DNA from: Rhodopirellula sp.
GTDB lineage: Bacteria > Planctomycetota > Planctomycetia > Pirellulales > Pirellulaceae
NCBI GenBank assembly: GCA_002701385.1
Contig: NZVD01000084.1
Coordinates: forward strand, 27,432 to 68,833
Length of the DNA: 41,402 nt
Direction of reading: 5' to 3'
A model generated the notes under the pieces. The model was not told the DNA's origin. It made no database searches and saw only the letters and a list, made by a program, of their open reading frames with translations. Position numbers and translations under genes: made by a program. Below, piece after piece: positions 24,554 through 31,433 of this stretch; position 1 is the stretch's first letter, and each line of letters starts with the position of its first letter.

Positions 24554-26596
24554 ATGGCGGACGACATTTCCTCTCAAGAAGTAGATACAGAATTGACAGA
24601 TAATGGCGCCGACTTCCAGGCACCATATCCCGGCGATAAGTCGATGCCTCAATGGGATACTGGGGGACTGATTGACGCACCCAAATTTACATTCAAGAAG
24701 TGGATCGGGATGTTGGGGCCTGGGCTGATTCTTGGCGGTGCAGCAATTGGCGGTGGTGAATGGCTGGTTGGACCTCAGGTTACCGCTCAATATGGCGGTG
24801 CGTTGCTCTGGCTTGCTACGCTTAGCATTATTGGTCAGGTCATTTATAACCTTGAGATCAGCCGATATACCCTTTATTCGGGTGAACCTATTTTTACTGG
24901 TAAGTTTCGTACCAAGCCCGGTAAGAATTTTTGGACCCTATGCTATCTGATTCTGGATGCTGGATCGATCTTTCCCTACTTGGCGATGACTGCAGCGATT
25001 CCATTGTTCGCGGCGTTATTCGGGATTGTTCCGACGCCTGAAGACGGTGAGGCGGCAATTGAGTTGTTCGGGATGGAGTTGTCACATGCCGCCACTGTCA
25101 AAACATTCGGATTGTCCATTTTTGCAGTCGCGTTGATTCCTCTGATTATCGGCGGAAAGATTCACGTCGCTCTGAAATGGGTCATGGGATTTAAAATTGT
25201 CACGGTGATGGGGTTCTTGCTGATTCTTGCGATTGGTTGGAGTAGCGCTGGGACCTGGACGGAGATCTTCAGTGGGTTTGTGAAGGTCGGGACTGTTCCA
25301 ATTGAGCGTATTGATGATAGCAATGGAAACGGCGTACTCGATGCGGGTGAAGACTGGGATGGCGACGGTGTTCTCGACGTCGTAGAACCGAAGTTTGTTG
25401 CTGAGGATGGGGCGCAGATGGCTAGTATTACAGTGGATGTAAATCCGCATGACGACATACAGGCCTCGGTGCTAAACGGCATTGCTATTCGTGATGATAA
25501 CGGAGAATACCTTGAGAAGATTAAGGTGAGTGAATCGGCGGGTGGGTTGGCACCAGGCGAATATTTCGTCCGATTTGATAATGACGGTAACGGATATATT
25601 GATGTCGACGGAGATAACGAACGTGATGGTGCAAGTGTCACTAACATTATAAGTGACCTCCTCAGCGGTAAAGGTTTTCCAGATATCGACTGGGCTCTGA
25701 TTGCATCGCTGTCAGCTCTAGTAGCTATTTCTGGTTCGGGTGGTTTATCGAATACACCGATTAGTAATTACACGCGCGACGAGGGATGGGGAATGGGACA
25801 CCACGTAGGTGCAATTCCCTCCGTGGTTGGCGGACTGGAGATTTCACTTTCACACCAAGGGACTGTCTTTAACCCAGACGCACCTGGTGCCATGCCGCGT
25901 TGGAAGCGTTGGTTTAAGCACGTGATGCGAGACCAATTAGTCGTTTGGATGCCCGCCTGTTTCATTGGGCTAGCTCTGCCCAGTATGTTAAGCGTTGAGT
26001 TCCTTGACCGAGGGGTGACTGTTCCAGACAAGTGGGTAGCCGCAACGATGACAGCAGACGGCGTAGCCAGTTCCGTTGCAGGGATCGAAATTCCGGATAA
26101 CATTTCTCATCTGTCAGCAGAAGAGCAGCAGGCGCTCAAGGACCAAGTGGAACAGGCTAAAGATGCGGGACTGGGTAAGACATTCTGGTTCCTGACTATT
26201 TTCTGTGGATTCTTAGTGTTGGCTCCGAGTATGTCCACTTCGGCCGATGGTATTATCCGTCGTTGGGTCGACTTGTTCTGGACAACGAGTGACCGGCTTC
26301 GCAGTATGCCGCCGGATGCCATTCGTATGGTCTATTTTGGAGTGCTTGCTTGCTATGCAACATTTGGGTTCATCATGCTTGGTTTCTTCAAACCCGATAC
26401 GTTGTTGAAGATTGCCACAACAATTTACAACTATGCGTTGGGAATTAGTTGCCTGCATACTGTTTACGTCAACAGAAGTTTACTTCCGAAGAAATTGCAA
26501 CCACGCAAGTCCGTTTGGATTGCGTTGTCATTTTTCGGTATATTCTTCCTGTTTATTGCATTAGTCTCGACGTTGAAACAGCTGGACGTCATATAG
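24554..26596 (+). CDS. NRAMP-like transporter with EF-hand-like extracytoplasmic insert
   Basis: The 680-residue protein has an NRAMP-type membrane core ('MLGPGLILGGAAIGGGEWLVGPQVTAQYG', helices to residue 670), but the family's metal-binding DPGN in helix 1 is replaced by GGGE (residues 66-69) and the helix-6 segment reads 'SGSGGLSNTPISNY' rather than MPH. The usual divalent-metal chemistry is therefore doubtful. Residues about 250-378, between helices 5 and 6 and predicted outside the cytoplasm, contain canonical 12-residue calcium loops starting at Asp255 (DSNGNGVLDAGE) and Asp267 (DWDGDGVLDVVE), and a third near Asp342 (DNDGNGYIDVDG). A second extra loop lies near 485-545. Typical NRAMP proteins have 400-450 residues. 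Substrate unknown. Confidence 0.83.
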   Translation: MADDISSQEVDTELTDNGADFQAPYPGDKSMPQWDTGGLIDAPKFTFKKWIGMLGPGLILGGAAIGGGEWLVGPQVTAQYGGALLWLATLSIIGQVIYNLEISRYTLYSGEPIFTGKFRTKPGKNFWTLCYLILDAGSIFPYLAMTAAIPLFAALFGIVPTPEDGEAAIELFGMELSHAATVKTFGLSIFAVALIPLIIGGKIHVALKWVMGFKIVTVMGFLLILAIGWSSAGTWTEIFSGFVKVGTVPIERIDDSNGNGVLDAGEDWDGDGVLDVVEPKFVAEDGAQMASITVDVNPHDDIQASVLNGIAIRDDNGEYLEKIKVSESAGGLAPGEYFVRFDNDGNGYIDVDGDNERDGASVTNIISDLLSGKGFPDIDWALIASLSALVAISGSGGLSNTPISNYTRDEGWGMGHHVGAIPSVVGGLEISLSHQGTVFNPDAPGAMPRWKRWFKHVMRDQLVVWMPACFIGLALPSMLSVEFLDRGVTVPDKWVAATMTADGVASSVAGIEIPDNISHLSAEEQQALKDQVEQAKDAGLGKTFWFLTIFCGFLVLAPSMSTSADGIIRRWVDLFWTTSDRLRSMPPDAIRMVYFGVLACYATFGFIMLGFFKPDTLLKIATTIYNYALGISCLHTVYVNRSLLPKKLQPRKSVWIALSFFGIFFLFIALVSTLKQLDVI

Positions 26597-26607: not shown

Positions 26608-27327
26608 CTATAGCTCCTTCATCCCGTTGTAGAGGATCTTTTTGACGTCCATTGTGTCAGGTAACCCTGCGATGATTAGCGGGTTCCATACTTGATACGT
26701 GTTGTTGCGCATGTCCTCAATCGCTTCCTGCATCTTACTGAGTTGAGAGGCAGCGACGTCAGCAATGGCGGCAAATACTTTCATTACGTGCCGATGGGCT
26801 TGGCTACCCCGGAGAGGTAAGTAATGGCGACGCTTGATGTAGCCGATTAACATGTGCGCGTTGTCAATGTGATCTGGGATGTCATGGCAGTGTTCCGACG
26901 GTTCCTCTTTGTTGACATATTGAGTACCTTTGCGTGCTCCTGGATGCAGATCCTGTTGCATGATCTGATCTAGTTGATCAATTGGCACCATGCGTTCGAA
27001 GACCTTATAGGCAGCCCACATCATTTGCATTCGAGAGCGAGTCATGTCGTCGCCATTCTGTATGTATGCAGCGTTTCGAGCCATGGACATTAGGCGTTTG
27101 GCTTTGGTGGCAGTACGTCCCTCCATTTGATGGAGACGGCGAAGAGCTCCTTGTAATTCCTGGGCGATATGTGCTTTCATGCGAGCGACTGCGAGTTGGT
27201 TAGAGGCAACAGCAGCGACGAGATCACTTTTGGCCGCATTAAGTTTGTAGGCTCCGAGCTCTCGGAGGAAGTCCACCTGTAAAGCAAATACGTCACGCCA
27301 GATTTCAAATTTTTCTTTTAACTCCAT
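26608..27327 (-). CDS. Hypothetical helical protein
   Basis: I do not recognise this protein. From the second ATG (27327), which has AAGGAG 8 bases upstream (the ATG at 27333 is only 2 bases from it), it has 239 residues and is almost wholly alpha-helical and hydrophilic, with long amphipathic stretches rich in A, K, R, M and Q ('AVARMKAHIAQELQGALRRLHQM') and no signal peptide or membrane helix. A middle segment is dense in His and acidic residues (SEHCHDIPDHIDNAH), which might bind metal. The gene converges on the NRAMP-like gene, 11 bases from its stop codon. Good ribosome-binding site and coding character support that it is real. Confidence 0.65.
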   Translation of the reverse strand: MELKEKFEIWRDVFALQVDFLRELGAYKLNAAKSDLVAAVASNQLAVARMKAHIAQELQGALRRLHQMEGRTATKAKRLMSMARNAAYIQNGDDMTRSRMQMMWAAYKVFERMVPIDQLDQIMQQDLHPGARKGTQYVNKEEPSEHCHDIPDHIDNAHMLIGYIKRRHYLPLRGSQAHRHVMKVFAAIADVAASQLSKMQEAIEDMRNNTYQVWNPLIIAGLPDTMDVKKILYNGMKEL

Positions 27328-27493
27328 GGTCATCTCTCCTTGCGATTTGGATCGGTTACATTTGGGTAGATAAGTAACCGTCGAATTCGAGACTAATTAA
27401 CAATCAGTTGCGTTTCGGGGAGGCGGCGATCGGCCTGTTTTTGCTATGCTTTCGCAGTGGAAAACGATTCAATGGAATTGGAATGATGGGTAA

Positions 27494-28651
27494 ATGACTG
27501 AAGTAACCCGCAATAAGAATCAACACAAAGCTATCTGGAGTCCGGTAATCGACTACCTTGGCCTTGGAGGGCTTTCTGTCATTGTGGCCGTTGGGGCCTT
27601 AGTGTTTTTGCCGCCGAGTCATCAGTGGTGGGAGCAATTCTCGCGTGCACTGGCCGTAGAAAGCGGACTGCAAGGGCCGCATGGCGGGCGATTCGATTCG
27701 CTCACACTGTTCTGGCTGTTGACGATCATCATTAATCACCCGCACTTTATGGCATCGTACCGATTGCTATACCGGTCGCGGGAACAAATCCAGACCTATA
27801 AGTGGTCGTCCATGAGAGTGCCTATTATTCTGGCCATGTTGAGTATCGTGGTCATGCTATCCACGAGTACTGGACGTACGCCGGACGGCACCGCTGGTTG
27901 GTCGCTCGGTAGCGCGTTGTATTTAGTTATGTCGATTGGCTTAATTCTCTATCTCGGGTGGCATTACAACCTACAGGCTTGGGGGATCATTGCAACTTAT
28001 TTGTTTCTTGGGGGCATCCGGGTCGATCGTCAGGAGAAATGGATGATCAAGGGCGGGGCGTTGGTGTTGGTCGGCGTCCATGGCTTGCTTTATCTGGCTT
28101 CCTCTCCGCTGATGGAATATAGCCCCGGGTTTGTTTCATTTTGTGTCAGTGTAACGCCTTACGTTCCGGTAATCGTCTTTCCGTTTTTTATTATGGGCGG
28201 ACTCGGTTTTTATCGAACAGCTCAAAGGACCGGTAAGCAAATCCCGGTGAATGCTGTTGTGCCCTTCGTGGCAATCTACATGTGGTATTTCGTGATCCTG
28301 AGTTATCACGATGTCGTCGGAGTGATGGTGTTTGTACAGCTAGCGCATGCTTTACAGTATTTGGTTGTGACGACTCGAGTGGAGGCCAATGTGGCTACTG
28401 CGAAACGTGGAACATCCGGCGTCTTATTTTCGCTTTTGGTTTACACCATCTTGCTTGCGACGGGTTACCTGGTGCTGGAACTGCCAGGAGTGGTGGGTAT
28501 GAAGGTGGAAACGGCCGTTGCTTATCACTCCTTCGTTGAGATGTTGGTAGTGTCCATCAATCTACATCACTTCTTTGTGGACGGAGCCATTTGGAAGATA
28601 AGTAATCCGGCTGTTCGAAAAGACTTGTTTGCTCACTTGGAGGCCGGGTAG
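27494..28651 (+). CDS. Polytopic membrane protein with conserved-looking intramembrane histidines
   Basis: I cannot name the family. The 385-residue protein has about nine or ten hydrophobic segments and no cleavable signal. Histidines occur in or next to these segments in short motifs: NHPHFMASY (H82, H84), GWHYNLQ (H157), YHDVV (H272), HALQYL (H285), YHSFVEM (H345) and LHHFFVDGAIWK (H358-H359). Such spacing resembles integral-membrane metal or heme proteins, for example diiron or carotenoid-cleaving enzymes of the Brp/Blh type, but no specific match is claimed. Its stop codon directly abuts the ATG of a histidine kinase (TAGATG), so the two are almost certainly translated together, and this protein may be the sensor half of the kinase. 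Confidence 0.75.
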   Translation: MTEVTRNKNQHKAIWSPVIDYLGLGGLSVIVAVGALVFLPPSHQWWEQFSRALAVESGLQGPHGGRFDSLTLFWLLTIIINHPHFMASYRLLYRSREQIQTYKWSSMRVPIILAMLSIVVMLSTSTGRTPDGTAGWSLGSALYLVMSIGLILYLGWHYNLQAWGIIATYLFLGGIRVDRQEKWMIKGGALVLVGVHGLLYLASSPLMEYSPGFVSFCVSVTPYVPVIVFPFFIMGGLGFYRTAQRTGKQIPVNAVVPFVAIYMWYFVILSYHDVVGVMVFVQLAHALQYLVVTTRVEANVATAKRGTSGVLFSLLVYTILLATGYLVLELPGVVGMKVETAVAYHSFVEMLVVSINLHHFFVDGAIWKISNPAVRKDLFAHLEAG

Positions 28652-29305
28652 ATGCAGGACGAAAACGCTGATCAAGATCGATTGATCGTAGCTTTGCAAC
28701 AAGAGCTGGCATCGTTGGAAGAACGAATTAGTACGATTGAGCATGAGTTACATGATGGTCCACTGCAGCGTGTGATTGCCGCAAGGATGCAGATGCAGGC
28801 ATTGTTGAGCAAGCCGGATTTAACGCCTGATCTATCCGATCAATTTGAGGAATTGGATCAATCGCTTGCACTTGCCGTTTCACAAGTGCGGAGCATTTTA
28901 CAGTCGAATCAACAACCAGCTGTTCAGGATACTTTGGGATTGGATACCCTTTGTCAGGAATTTACGGAACCTGCTTTCCGGGTGTGGCTCTACGGTCCTT
29001 CGAAGATTACCGGAGTTTCAATAGAATTGTGGGACGCCGTGGTACGGGTCGTTCGCGAACTGATTTGGAATGCACGTAAACACAGCCAGGCAGATGGCGT
29101 GACGGTGACTTCACAAGAGAACGAACGGACATGGGTCATCGAAGTACGAGATCTGGGTAAGGGCTTTGATCCGGAGCAGGTCCCGGACGATTCATATGGA
29201 CTTTGCACTGCCGTCGAACGTGCACGGATGATGGGATTTGAGCTTGTCATCGATTCAGTACGTGGAGAAGGCACACGTGTTACACTACGGGGAACCATAG
29301 CATGA
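28652..29305 (+). CDS. NarL/DesK-type sensor histidine kinase (soluble, no sensor domain)
   Basis: The 217-residue cytoplasmic protein has a coiled-coil start, the HisKA_3 dimerisation/phosphoacceptor motif IEHELHDGPLQRV (phospho-His34 in the ELHD context), and an HATPase_c domain with N-box 'RELIWNARKHSQA' (Asn140), G1 'DLGKGFDP' (167-174) and G2 'GLCTAVERA'. It would autophosphorylate and pass phosphate to a LuxR/NarL-type response regulator; none is in this window. It has no membrane or sensor domain of its own, so sensing may be done by the abutting membrane protein. Its last four bases overlap the ATG of the deacetylase gene (ATGA). Confidence 0.88.
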   Translation: MQDENADQDRLIVALQQELASLEERISTIEHELHDGPLQRVIAARMQMQALLSKPDLTPDLSDQFEELDQSLALAVSQVRSILQSNQQPAVQDTLGLDTLCQEFTEPAFRVWLYGPSKITGVSIELWDAVVRVVRELIWNARKHSQADGVTVTSQENERTWVIEVRDLGKGFDPEQVPDDSYGLCTAVERARMMGFELVIDSVRGEGTRVTLRGTIA

Positions 29306-31035
29306 AGTCGTCGATAGGTATTAATTTGATTTTGCTACTGGGACTCGTTGTAGACCTTAGGGCTCAGCAGCCAGTGCCCGACAAATTGGTAGTCCTGACA
29401 TTTGATGATTCAGTCCGAAGCCACTACACGATTGTACGCCCCATCTTGAAAGAGTTTGGGTTTGGAGCCACGTTCTTTATTACCGAAGGATTCGAGTTTC
29501 AAACCGACAAAGAGAATTACATGACCTGGGAGCAGATTGCTGAACTCGATCAGGCTGGCTTTGAAATTGGTAACCACACACGGGACCACGTGGCCATTAC
29601 GGAGGCAAATTATAAAGAGCAACTTCAGGCGATAAATGATCGCTGTGAAGAATATGGTATCCCGAAGCCTACTAGTTTCGCTTTCCCGGGAAATAAATTT
29701 TCGGCGGAGATGATTCCTTGGTTGAAAGACATGGGGATCCAGTTTGCGCGTCGTGGAGGAACTCCGGAGTTTGATTATGACGAAGGTAGAGGAGTCGCAG
29801 TGGAACCGGGGTTTGACCATCCTTTGCTACTGCCGACAGCGGCAGATGCGCGTCCGGATTGGGGGATTGAGGAATTTGTGCAGGGCGCAAAGCAGGCTGA
29901 GTTCGGGCGTATTGCGATCCTGCAGTTTCACGGTGTGCCTGATGGAGCTCATGATTGGGTCAGCACGACCGAAGCCAAATTTCGTTCGTATATGCATTAT
30001 CTGAAATCCAATGGTTACCAAGTGATCGCCATGCGTGATTTATCAAAGTATCTGAGCGGCGGGTTGTTGCCAGTCAATGCAGATGAAATCATTTCCGATC
30101 GCCAGCAGTTAATGGCAGCTGGCAGGTCACGTGATGAATTCAGGGGGCCAAAGGATCGCCGCGACCTTGGGGCCTGGGCATCTATTATGAAACGCCATGG
30201 TTACACGGTAGCCGAATCGAGAATGGTTACGGGTTTGGACTTTAATACCATGGAGAGAGCGCTGGCACGCGCGCGAACAATAAAGCCTGTGGGGAAATCC
30301 ATTGAAGTTTTACCGTATCCCGGTGGTCGGCACCCTCGTTTGGGTTTTCGAGATGGTGAATATCGTCCAAGGCGGGAGACGAAGGTGAGTGTCTTTAGTC
30401 CCTGGGATAGCGAAGACTATTTGGTCGTTGATATTCCGGAAGCGATTTGGAATGTAACAGATCAGGGAAGGGAGTTGCTGTACCTCGCGCATGAAGATGT
30501 TCCGACGATGTGGGACCGCCTTGGCAAACGCGTGCTAGAGTCCGAATGGCAGAGAATTCGTGGTGGGTATGAATCGACCATTGAATTGCCTAATCGGGTG
30601 GTCATACAGACTCGGGTCTTTCCTCGGAAGGACTCGGTTGGATTGGAAATGGAACTAATCAACAATTCACAGTCCCGGCTGACCGGACTCTACACGCAGA
30701 ACTGTATTATGCTGGCAAAAATGTCCGGATTTAAATCGCAGTCACTGGATCACCGGCGAACGACTGAGTTCTTCACAGCGTGCGGCAATGAAGCGGAGGA
30801 CAAGTGGGTGATATACTCGTGGGAAAAGGTTACGCGAGCCTGGGGGAATATTCATTGCCCCTGTTTGCACAGCGATCCTCAATTTGATGACTTGGAGCCG
30901 GGTGAGAGCCAGATCATTCAAGGCTGGATCTCGTTCTATGAAGGTCGCGATGTAGAGGGGGAGATCGGGCTATTAAGAAAACAACAGGTGTTACGGCACC
31001 ATGGATCGGGAGTGCCTATTGGCACCACCGATTGA
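29302..31035 (+). CDS. Polysaccharide deacetylase-like protein with unknown C-terminal domain
   Basis: The 577-residue exported protein (signal peptide 1-21, ending DLRA) has a NodB-type carbohydrate esterase 4 domain at about 25-250: TFDD (33-36, catalytic base Asp35 and metal Asp36), NHTRDH (His92 and His96 as metal ligands), FAFPG (126-130) and LQFHG (His210). It would remove N- or O-acetyl groups from a polysaccharide such as chitin or peptidoglycan. Residues about 285-577 form a second domain I do not recognise, with 'FSPWDSEDYLVVDIPEAIW' and 'YTQNCIMLAKMSGF' and an apparent beta-sandwich character with several Cys residues. The gene overlaps the kinase gene by four bases. The catalytic residues look intact. 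Confidence 0.82.
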   Translation: MKSSIGINLILLLGLVVDLRAQQPVPDKLVVLTFDDSVRSHYTIVRPILKEFGFGATFFITEGFEFQTDKENYMTWEQIAELDQAGFEIGNHTRDHVAITEANYKEQLQAINDRCEEYGIPKPTSFAFPGNKFSAEMIPWLKDMGIQFARRGGTPEFDYDEGRGVAVEPGFDHPLLLPTAADARPDWGIEEFVQGAKQAEFGRIAILQFHGVPDGAHDWVSTTEAKFRSYMHYLKSNGYQVIAMRDLSKYLSGGLLPVNADEIISDRQQLMAAGRSRDEFRGPKDRRDLGAWASIMKRHGYTVAESRMVTGLDFNTMERALARARTIKPVGKSIEVLPYPGGRHPRLGFRDGEYRPRRETKVSVFSPWDSEDYLVVDIPEAIWNVTDQGRELLYLAHEDVPTMWDRLGKRVLESEWQRIRGGYESTIELPNRVVIQTRVFPRKDSVGLEMELINNSQSRLTGLYTQNCIMLAKMSGFKSQSLDHRRTTEFFTACGNEAEDKWVIYSWEKVTRAWGNIHCPCLHSDPQFDDLEPGESQIIQGWISFYEGRDVEGEIGLLRKQQVLRHHGSGVPIGTTD

Positions 31036-31073
31036 ATCGTGAAATCAGTGAAAATTAGAAAAGGAGCAGATAG

Positions 31074-31433
31074 ATGCCAAAGTTAAATGTAGAAGGTGTG
31101 GGTGAGTTCGAAGTTGAAGAAGGCACTCGGTTAGTGCTGGCTCTGACCGATACGGCACAGGTGGATCAGTTACATGCCTGTGGTGGCCAGGGGCGGTGTA
31201 CGACCTGCCGCGTGGAAATTACCGACGGAGCGCCATCGCAAATGACAGCTGCAGAAAAAGAAACGCTAACAGCGCGAGAATTGAGTGGTGTGCGTTTGAG
31301 TTGTCAGGTGTTGTGTCAGCAAGACATGACAGTGAATGTGATCAGTCGCCTAGAAGGAAGCGGTCGAGCTGATGCTGGTGGCCGCCCGGACGAAGAATTA
31401 CAACCTCAACCGGTTGAGTGGGTGGACGCCTAA
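31074..31433 (+). CDS. 2Fe-2S ferredoxin
   Basis: The 119-residue soluble protein has the plant/vertebrate-type 2Fe-2S cluster spacing, with Cys36, Cys42, Cys45 and Cys77 in 'HACGGQGRCTTCRVE' and 'RLSCQVLC'. It carries one electron and has no other domain. It starts 38 bases after the deacetylase gene on the same strand with AAAGGAG upstream, so it may belong to the same transcript. Its partner reductase or oxygenase is not identifiable from the window; the histidine-rich membrane protein of the same unit is one possibility. It converges on the HtrA-type protease gene with a 12-base gap. Confidence 0.92.
   Translation: MPKLNVEGVGEFEVEEGTRLVLALTDTAQVDQLHACGGQGRCTTCRVEITDGAPSQMTAAEKETLTARELSGVRLSCQVLCQQDMTVNVISRLEGSGRADAGGRPDEELQPQPVEWVDA

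Follow-up and report, generated by a model that had tools for sequence, protein, structure and literature searches.

A conserved membrane protein–kinase gene pair in Rhodopirellula as a possible split NarL-family sensor

The 41,402-nucleotide stretch of Rhodopirellula sp. DNA analyzed here (the window) carries a short NarL-type histidine kinase that has no sensor domain of its own. It lies between a membrane protein of no named family and a polysaccharide deacetylase-type protein, and a ferredoxin follows. This raises the question of where the kinase receives its input, and of how many of the four genes belong together. The genes are as follows.

27494-28651, + strand: membrane protein gene, 385 aa, 10 predicted transmembrane helices, family unnamed; proposed input half of a split sensor
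28652-29305, + strand: stand-alone NarL-type (HisKA_3) histidine kinase gene, 217 aa, without a sensor domain
29302-31035, + strand: polysaccharide deacetylase-type protein gene, 577 aa, NodB domain in the first 150 residues; optional member
31074-31433, + strand: [2Fe-2S] ferredoxin (Fer2) gene, 119 aa; optional member

Gene order in related genomes

The four reading frames and their spacings match the original prediction for this DNA. The membrane protein stop abuts the kinase start (TAGATG, gap 0), the kinase stop and the deacetylase start overlap by 4 bases, and 38 bases separate the deacetylase from the ferredoxin. A Pfam scan assigns HisKA_3 and HATPase_c to the kinase, Polysacc_deac_1 to the deacetylase and Fer2 to the ferredoxin. 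Purifying selection acts on all four genes: between the genome of the window (G000) and G006, dN/dS is 0.05 for the membrane protein (273 codons), 0.13 for the kinase, 0.10 for the deacetylase and 0 for the ferredoxin, which shows zero amino-acid changes over 119 codons.

The membrane protein has strong matches in 8 of 60 related genomes, seven of the genus and one of another genus (G012), and weak matches in G023 and G057. A ninth locus with both genes (L048) comes from a wider genome collection. The kinase directly follows the membrane protein, in unchanged order, in all nine orthologous loci that contain both. The two genes abut (gap 0) at six loci, are 3 bases apart at one and 32 bases apart at two that are close relatives of each other; at two of the nine (G006 and G007) a contig end truncates the membrane gene. 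Seven of the nine genomes of the genus have both genes, and the other two, G004 (69% complete) and G005 (89% complete), have neither the membrane protein nor a HisKA_3 kinase.

The deacetylase lies directly after the kinase in eight of the nine loci, with overlaps or gaps of less than 10 bases. The ferredoxin is found downstream in six. It is missing from G008, G001 keeps only a piece of it, and in G012 the contig ends before reaching it, pieces of the deacetylase and ferredoxin genes being located together on a different contig. G008 has no match to either the deacetylase or the ferredoxin, so the pair has been retained there without the remaining genes. Near-full-length deacetylase homologues (48-54% identity) occur in four genomes that lack the pair (G021, G022, G023 and G030), and 19 pair-less genomes have the ferredoxin (61-88% identity). 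Within the lineage the four-gene unit is genuine, yet only the membrane protein–kinase pair is constant; the other two genes often accompany it in the presumed transcription unit but can be dispensed with. Measured against two conditions set to refute the original prediction, an unconserved gene order and variable histidines, the results uphold the pair and not the unit of four.

Two genes upstream of the pair belong to the same conserved block.

24554-26596, + strand: Nramp-type metal transporter (NCBIfam NF037982, 86.8 bits against a cut-off of 50); upstream neighbor, context only
26608-27333, - strand: conserved helical protein outside any known family; its gene runs divergently to the pair and co-occurs with it

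Around the pair, Nramp, the 26608 gene, htrA and aat mostly retain their order across the nine loci, which makes inherited order a live alternative explanation for the adjacency of the pair. The 26608 gene and Nramp are flipped in some loci, with the order of the pair undisturbed.

The membrane protein family and its histidines

The membrane protein matches no Pfam family at E <= 1 and no NCBIfam family. Its predicted model has ten long helices (pLDDT 84.7, pTM 0.85), and the loop charges (K+R 10 versus 4) favor a cytosolic location for both ends. The PDB yielded neither a sequence match nor a confident fold match, and Foldseek found nothing similar to the model at E <= 0.001, either in the PDB or among viral models. 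The best VIA-align Z score, 6.9 to rhodopsin-like bundles, is typical of common helical arrangements, and a new fold is not claimed.

The family is present in 28 of 392 genomes of the phylum and at 54 loci of the genome collection. According to database records these belong to several phyla, with hosts among the planctomycetes, gamma- and deltaproteobacteria, myxococci, acidobacteria and others. An alignment of 51 family sequences contains no convincing Pfam or NCBIfam match, the best being DUF6057 in two rows (E 0.0071). Searches of the open-licence literature, judged by titles and the starts of abstracts, brought up no description of the family or of the pair, and one may still be published elsewhere.

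His84, Trp156, His157, Gln161, Trp264, His285, Gln288, Tyr289, His358, His359, Asp363 and Trp367 are invariant in the 51-row alignment, which has two rows from L069 and none from L048 (unread bases), from L052 or L055 (both cut), from L083 or from the additionally fetched loci. Because the genome-collection loci had been chosen by peptide patterns around His84 and His358/359, residue conservation was checked on 24 profile-found homologues. For this set 25 homologues were submitted and 24 aligned (L034 was not recovered), one is shared with the 51 rows, and L037, L038, L039 and L041 were left out. All 24 keep His84, His157, Gln161, His285, Tyr289, His359, Asp363 and Trp367, and partial conservation is seen for Gln288 (23 of 24), His358 (18) and Trp264 (14). 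The codons of the conserved histidines and the aspartate are located as follows.

27743-27745, + strand: His84 codon; 51 of 51 rows and 24 of 24 proteins, partly ascertained by the search pattern
27962-27964, + strand: His157 codon, motif W-H-x3-Q; 51 of 51 rows and 24 of 24 proteins
28346-28348, + strand: His285 codon, motif H-x2-Q-Y; 51 of 51 rows and 24 of 24 proteins
28565-28582, + strand: His358, His359 and Asp363 codons, motif H-H-x3-D-x3-W; His359 and Asp363 invariant in both sets, His358 in 51 of 51 rows and 18 of 24 proteins

The original prediction placed eight histidines in or near membrane segments, and 8 of the 13 histidines do lie inside helices of the model (82, 84, 157, 196, 285, 345, 358 and 359). 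Five of these are invariant in the 51 rows, and His82, His196 and His345 vary, although His196 is kept in the six aligned pair proteins. With four histidines and an aspartate at mid-helix positions on four helices, the protein may hold a metal or heme cofactor inside the membrane, which is compatible with the binding originally predicted.

Brp/Blh, the beta-carotene oxygenase (PF15461, BCD), is likewise a multi-helix membrane protein with histidines distributed over several helices, and its PH and WHF motifs are superficially similar. Homology to it was rejected in a comparison confined to sequence: PF15461 has no match in G000 or in the 51 rows (E <= 1), and profile-profile alignment (hhalign) with 13 planctomycete BCD proteins gave probabilities of 0.1 and 0.15.

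The genomic setting of the family differs outside this lineage. None of 73 distinct homologues has a HisKA_3 kinase in the flanking DNA covered, and a search at E <= 10 turned up no further one. That DNA reaches at least 1 kb to each side in only 41 cases. One of the 73, L011, is the remaining part of the pair protein of G007; the other 72 are kinase-free in the DNA covered. Other neighbors do recur, with TPR_2 in 19 of 81 upstream and 10 of 76 downstream genes scanned, and ASPIC/UnbV proteins in 8 of 81, in a survey of mechanical frames (some certainly wrong) that excludes frames with unread bases, cut frames and those above 900 aa. The absence of such a kinase near these homologues suggests that the basic role of the membrane protein is probably not signalling, and that the kinase pairing, if functional, would be a local recruitment.

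By eye, nine homologues (L018, L022, L023, L024, L036, L040, L082, L083 and L085) carry a C-terminal TPR-like fusion. In Methylophaga (L053:4362-7119 and L054:4173-6930) the homologue frame appears by eye to overlap the end of a GMC oxidoreductase-like gene, a hint of a role in electron transfer.

The kinase and its candidate regulator

The kinase matches HisKA_3 with 30.6 bits (Pfam cut-off 24) and HATPase_c with 39 bits (cut-off 26.4). Only 33 residues of the 217-aa core precede the phospho-acceptor His34, which agrees with the earlier description of a kinase without a sensor region. In all eight aligned pair kinases, H34, D35, G36, Q39, N140, K143 and H144 are invariant, as are the glycine-box residues D167, G169 and G171 (DxGxG), G183, G207 and T208. 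The HDxxxQ motif is that given for HisKA_3 kinase/phosphatases in PMC11502775.

This kinase is the sole HisKA_3 match in G000, and each of six other genomes of the genus with any match has exactly one. When 45 kinases are placed in a tree, a single branch of the best tree sets all nine pair kinases apart, but weakly, with a support of 67/93 and presence in 72% of bootstrap trees, in a bootstrap that had not settled; the G012 and L048 kinases have a very long branch (3.17). The group falls within or next to the order's NarL-type kinases, which mostly have long N-terminal regions. Short sensorless NarL-type kinases (210-271 aa) were also found at 11 loci in other genera without this membrane protein, so a missing sensor alone is no proof of a split system. 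In other genera, short sensorless NarL-type kinases at L214:2212-3436, L216:2672-3650 and L222:2372-3462 come, by eye, immediately after STAS-like proteins, and in two of these pairs the genes overlap.

No LuxR-type regulator gene is present in the block around the pair, and a linked one is not obligatory for the HisKA_3 family. Three G000 proteins score above the GerE cut-off. Two of them are receiver-LuxR (REC-GerE) regulators that lack an adjacent kinase and lie on contigs C49 and C40. The C49 regulator has relatives with at least 60% identity in 45 of the 60 genomes. In six other genomes, hand-picked from the match coordinates, they adjoin a NarL-type kinase, four in tandem (two with 4-base overlaps) and two divergently; both of the two kinases scanned have PAS domains and one also has a GAF domain. 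Since its relatives lie beside NarL-type kinases elsewhere, the orphan C49 regulator, found by elimination, is the likeliest target of the genome's only HisKA_3 kinase. Two genomes, both incomplete, speak against this partnership: G004 has the C49 regulator without the pair, and in G006 (85% complete) the pair is present and neither regulator was found. G005 has neither the pair nor either regulator.

The nearest known analogy is UhpC-UhpB, which senses sugar phosphates in Escherichia coli. According to PMC7096432, UhpC interacts with a histidine kinase and stimulates phosphotransfer. There, as may be the case here, a separate membrane protein partners a NarL-family kinase, and the adjacent membrane partner gene is found in 9 of 9 loci of the present pair. 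However, UhpC is a transporter homologue, whereas the membrane protein of the window matches no transporter family; no transporter family is hit by more than one of the 51 rows, the single hit being at chance level (Sulf_transp, E 0.72). UhpB has a membrane region of its own and an adjacent regulator, UhpA. The window kinase, unlike UhpB, has neither. The pair may at most work like UhpC-UhpB and is not a member of that system, because no test made identifies its membrane partner as a transporter homologue.

NarQ and NarX provide the best models for the kinase core (68.7 and 57.4 bits) and have the HDxxxQ motif in common with it, but these scores are far below the cut-offs of 553 and 578, and the kinase lacks a nitrate-sensing region, a HAMP domain and a linked regulator. 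Other planctomycete NarL-type kinase/regulator pairs (for example L259, L260 and L261) have a related kinase core and a regulator related to that on C49. Their kinases differ in length (431 to 837 aa); the two that were scanned carry PAS or GAF sensor domains, and no membrane partner was seen alongside.

The pair as a possible split sensor, and its surroundings

The first two genes may encode a split NarL-family sensor that acts on an unlinked regulator, a reading to which we assign a probability of about 0.45. The ten-helix membrane protein, with its cluster of invariant His, Asp, Gln and Tyr residues at the middle of four helices, would probably bind a metal or heme cofactor within the membrane, contact the 217-aa cytosolic kinase and stand in for its missing sensor region. 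The core of the kinase, with an HDxxxQ motif indicative of both kinase and phosphatase activity, would in turn set the phosphorylation of an unlinked LuxR-type regulator, most likely the one on C49. The predicted pairing of the two genes is borne out, as they abut or nearly abut and stay together in all nine loci. If the reading is true, it adds a new kind of input module to those of NarL-type kinases and opens a first functional approach to a family with strongly conserved intramembrane histidines and no convincing match in Pfam, NCBIfam or the PDB. It also offers a prediction of which of two orphan regulators the only HisKA_3 kinase of the genome controls. A broader proposal is that, in this planctomycete lineage, a member of a large, undescribed family of intramembrane metal or heme proteins came to serve as the detachable sensory half of a NarL-type kinase whose own sensor region had been lost, so that the state of a membrane cofactor or redox state is read out by an unlinked LuxR-type regulator; we regard this extension as unlikely.

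It is conceivable, if somewhat unlikely, that the two genes are co-transcribed yet functionally separate. The membrane protein would then act as a metallo- or heme enzyme within the membrane, which is probably what its homologues are, and a short N-terminal coiled coil or a diffusible signal would control the cytosolic kinase. The homologues that neighbor TPR proteins, ASPIC/UnbV proteins or (by eye, at the two Methylophaga loci) GMC-type oxidoreductases and no kinases would fit such a separation, as would the sensorless kinases at 11 loci in other genera. Against it, the pair is kept in G008 without the downstream genes and is never split in nine loci. The adjacency might instead reflect no functional link at all, the two genes being neighbors retained through slow rearrangement in a single lineage, much as Nramp, the 26608 gene, htrA and aat are syntenic in most of the nine loci. 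This is distinctly improbable given the zero or near-zero gaps despite deep divergence (37-43% identity of the membrane protein to those of G012 and G003), the flips of the 26608 gene and Nramp that leave the pair intact, and the fact that G004 and G005 each lack both genes.

As originally predicted, all four genes would form one system, in which a redox or ligand sensor controls the deacetylation of an envelope polysaccharide and the ferredoxin serves as electron donor. The close kinase-deacetylase order, the ferredoxin downstream at six loci and the two gene pieces that lie together in G012 speak for this. It is nevertheless very unlikely, because G008 lacks both downstream genes, the G001 ferredoxin is a fragment, both genes are widespread without the pair, and there is no sign of what the ferredoxin would reduce. 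Redox sensing, envelope remodelling with a polysaccharide target and electron donation by the ferredoxin are without support, as nothing found bears on them.

The divergent 26608 gene occurs in seven of eight pair genomes and is interrupted by a contig end in the eighth. Its product is 59-88% identical inside the genus and 55% identical in G012, with only weak matches elsewhere (25% in G014 and 21% in G032). The gene, also seen at L047:3845-4567 and L048:5084-5806, keeps its place between Nramp and the pair even when its orientation is flipped. The predicted fold of its product is not usable (pLDDT 60, pTM 0.48). A phylogenetic footprint of the 160-base gap between this gene and the membrane gene, made from four sequences with 62% mean identity, revealed no clear operator. 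The Nramp-type transporter keeps its place in most pair loci and has the opposite orientation in G003. It contains an insert with EF-hand-like DxNGNGxLDxGED repeats, recognized by eye (EF-hand_1 matches only at E 0.78).

The deacetylase matches Polysacc_deac_1 over residues 23-148 with 71.2 bits (cut-off 23.1). An assignment as the poly-GlcNAc deacetylase PgaB was rejected, with TIGR03938 scoring 54.8 bits against an equivalog cut-off of 321.9. The second half of the protein (about residues 270-560) has independent matches in many genomes, and therefore appears to be a separate domain of unknown function.

The ferredoxin matches Fer2 with 38.8 bits (cut-off 21), and by eye its cysteines have the CX5CX2C...C spacing. 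The G001 gene (C210:60628-60720) is a remnant that matches residues 89-119. The ferredoxin of G009, from another genus (L128), is 88% identical to that of the window, and those of genus mates are less so (78% in G002, 68% in G003 and 65% in G007), a pattern that suggests transfer.
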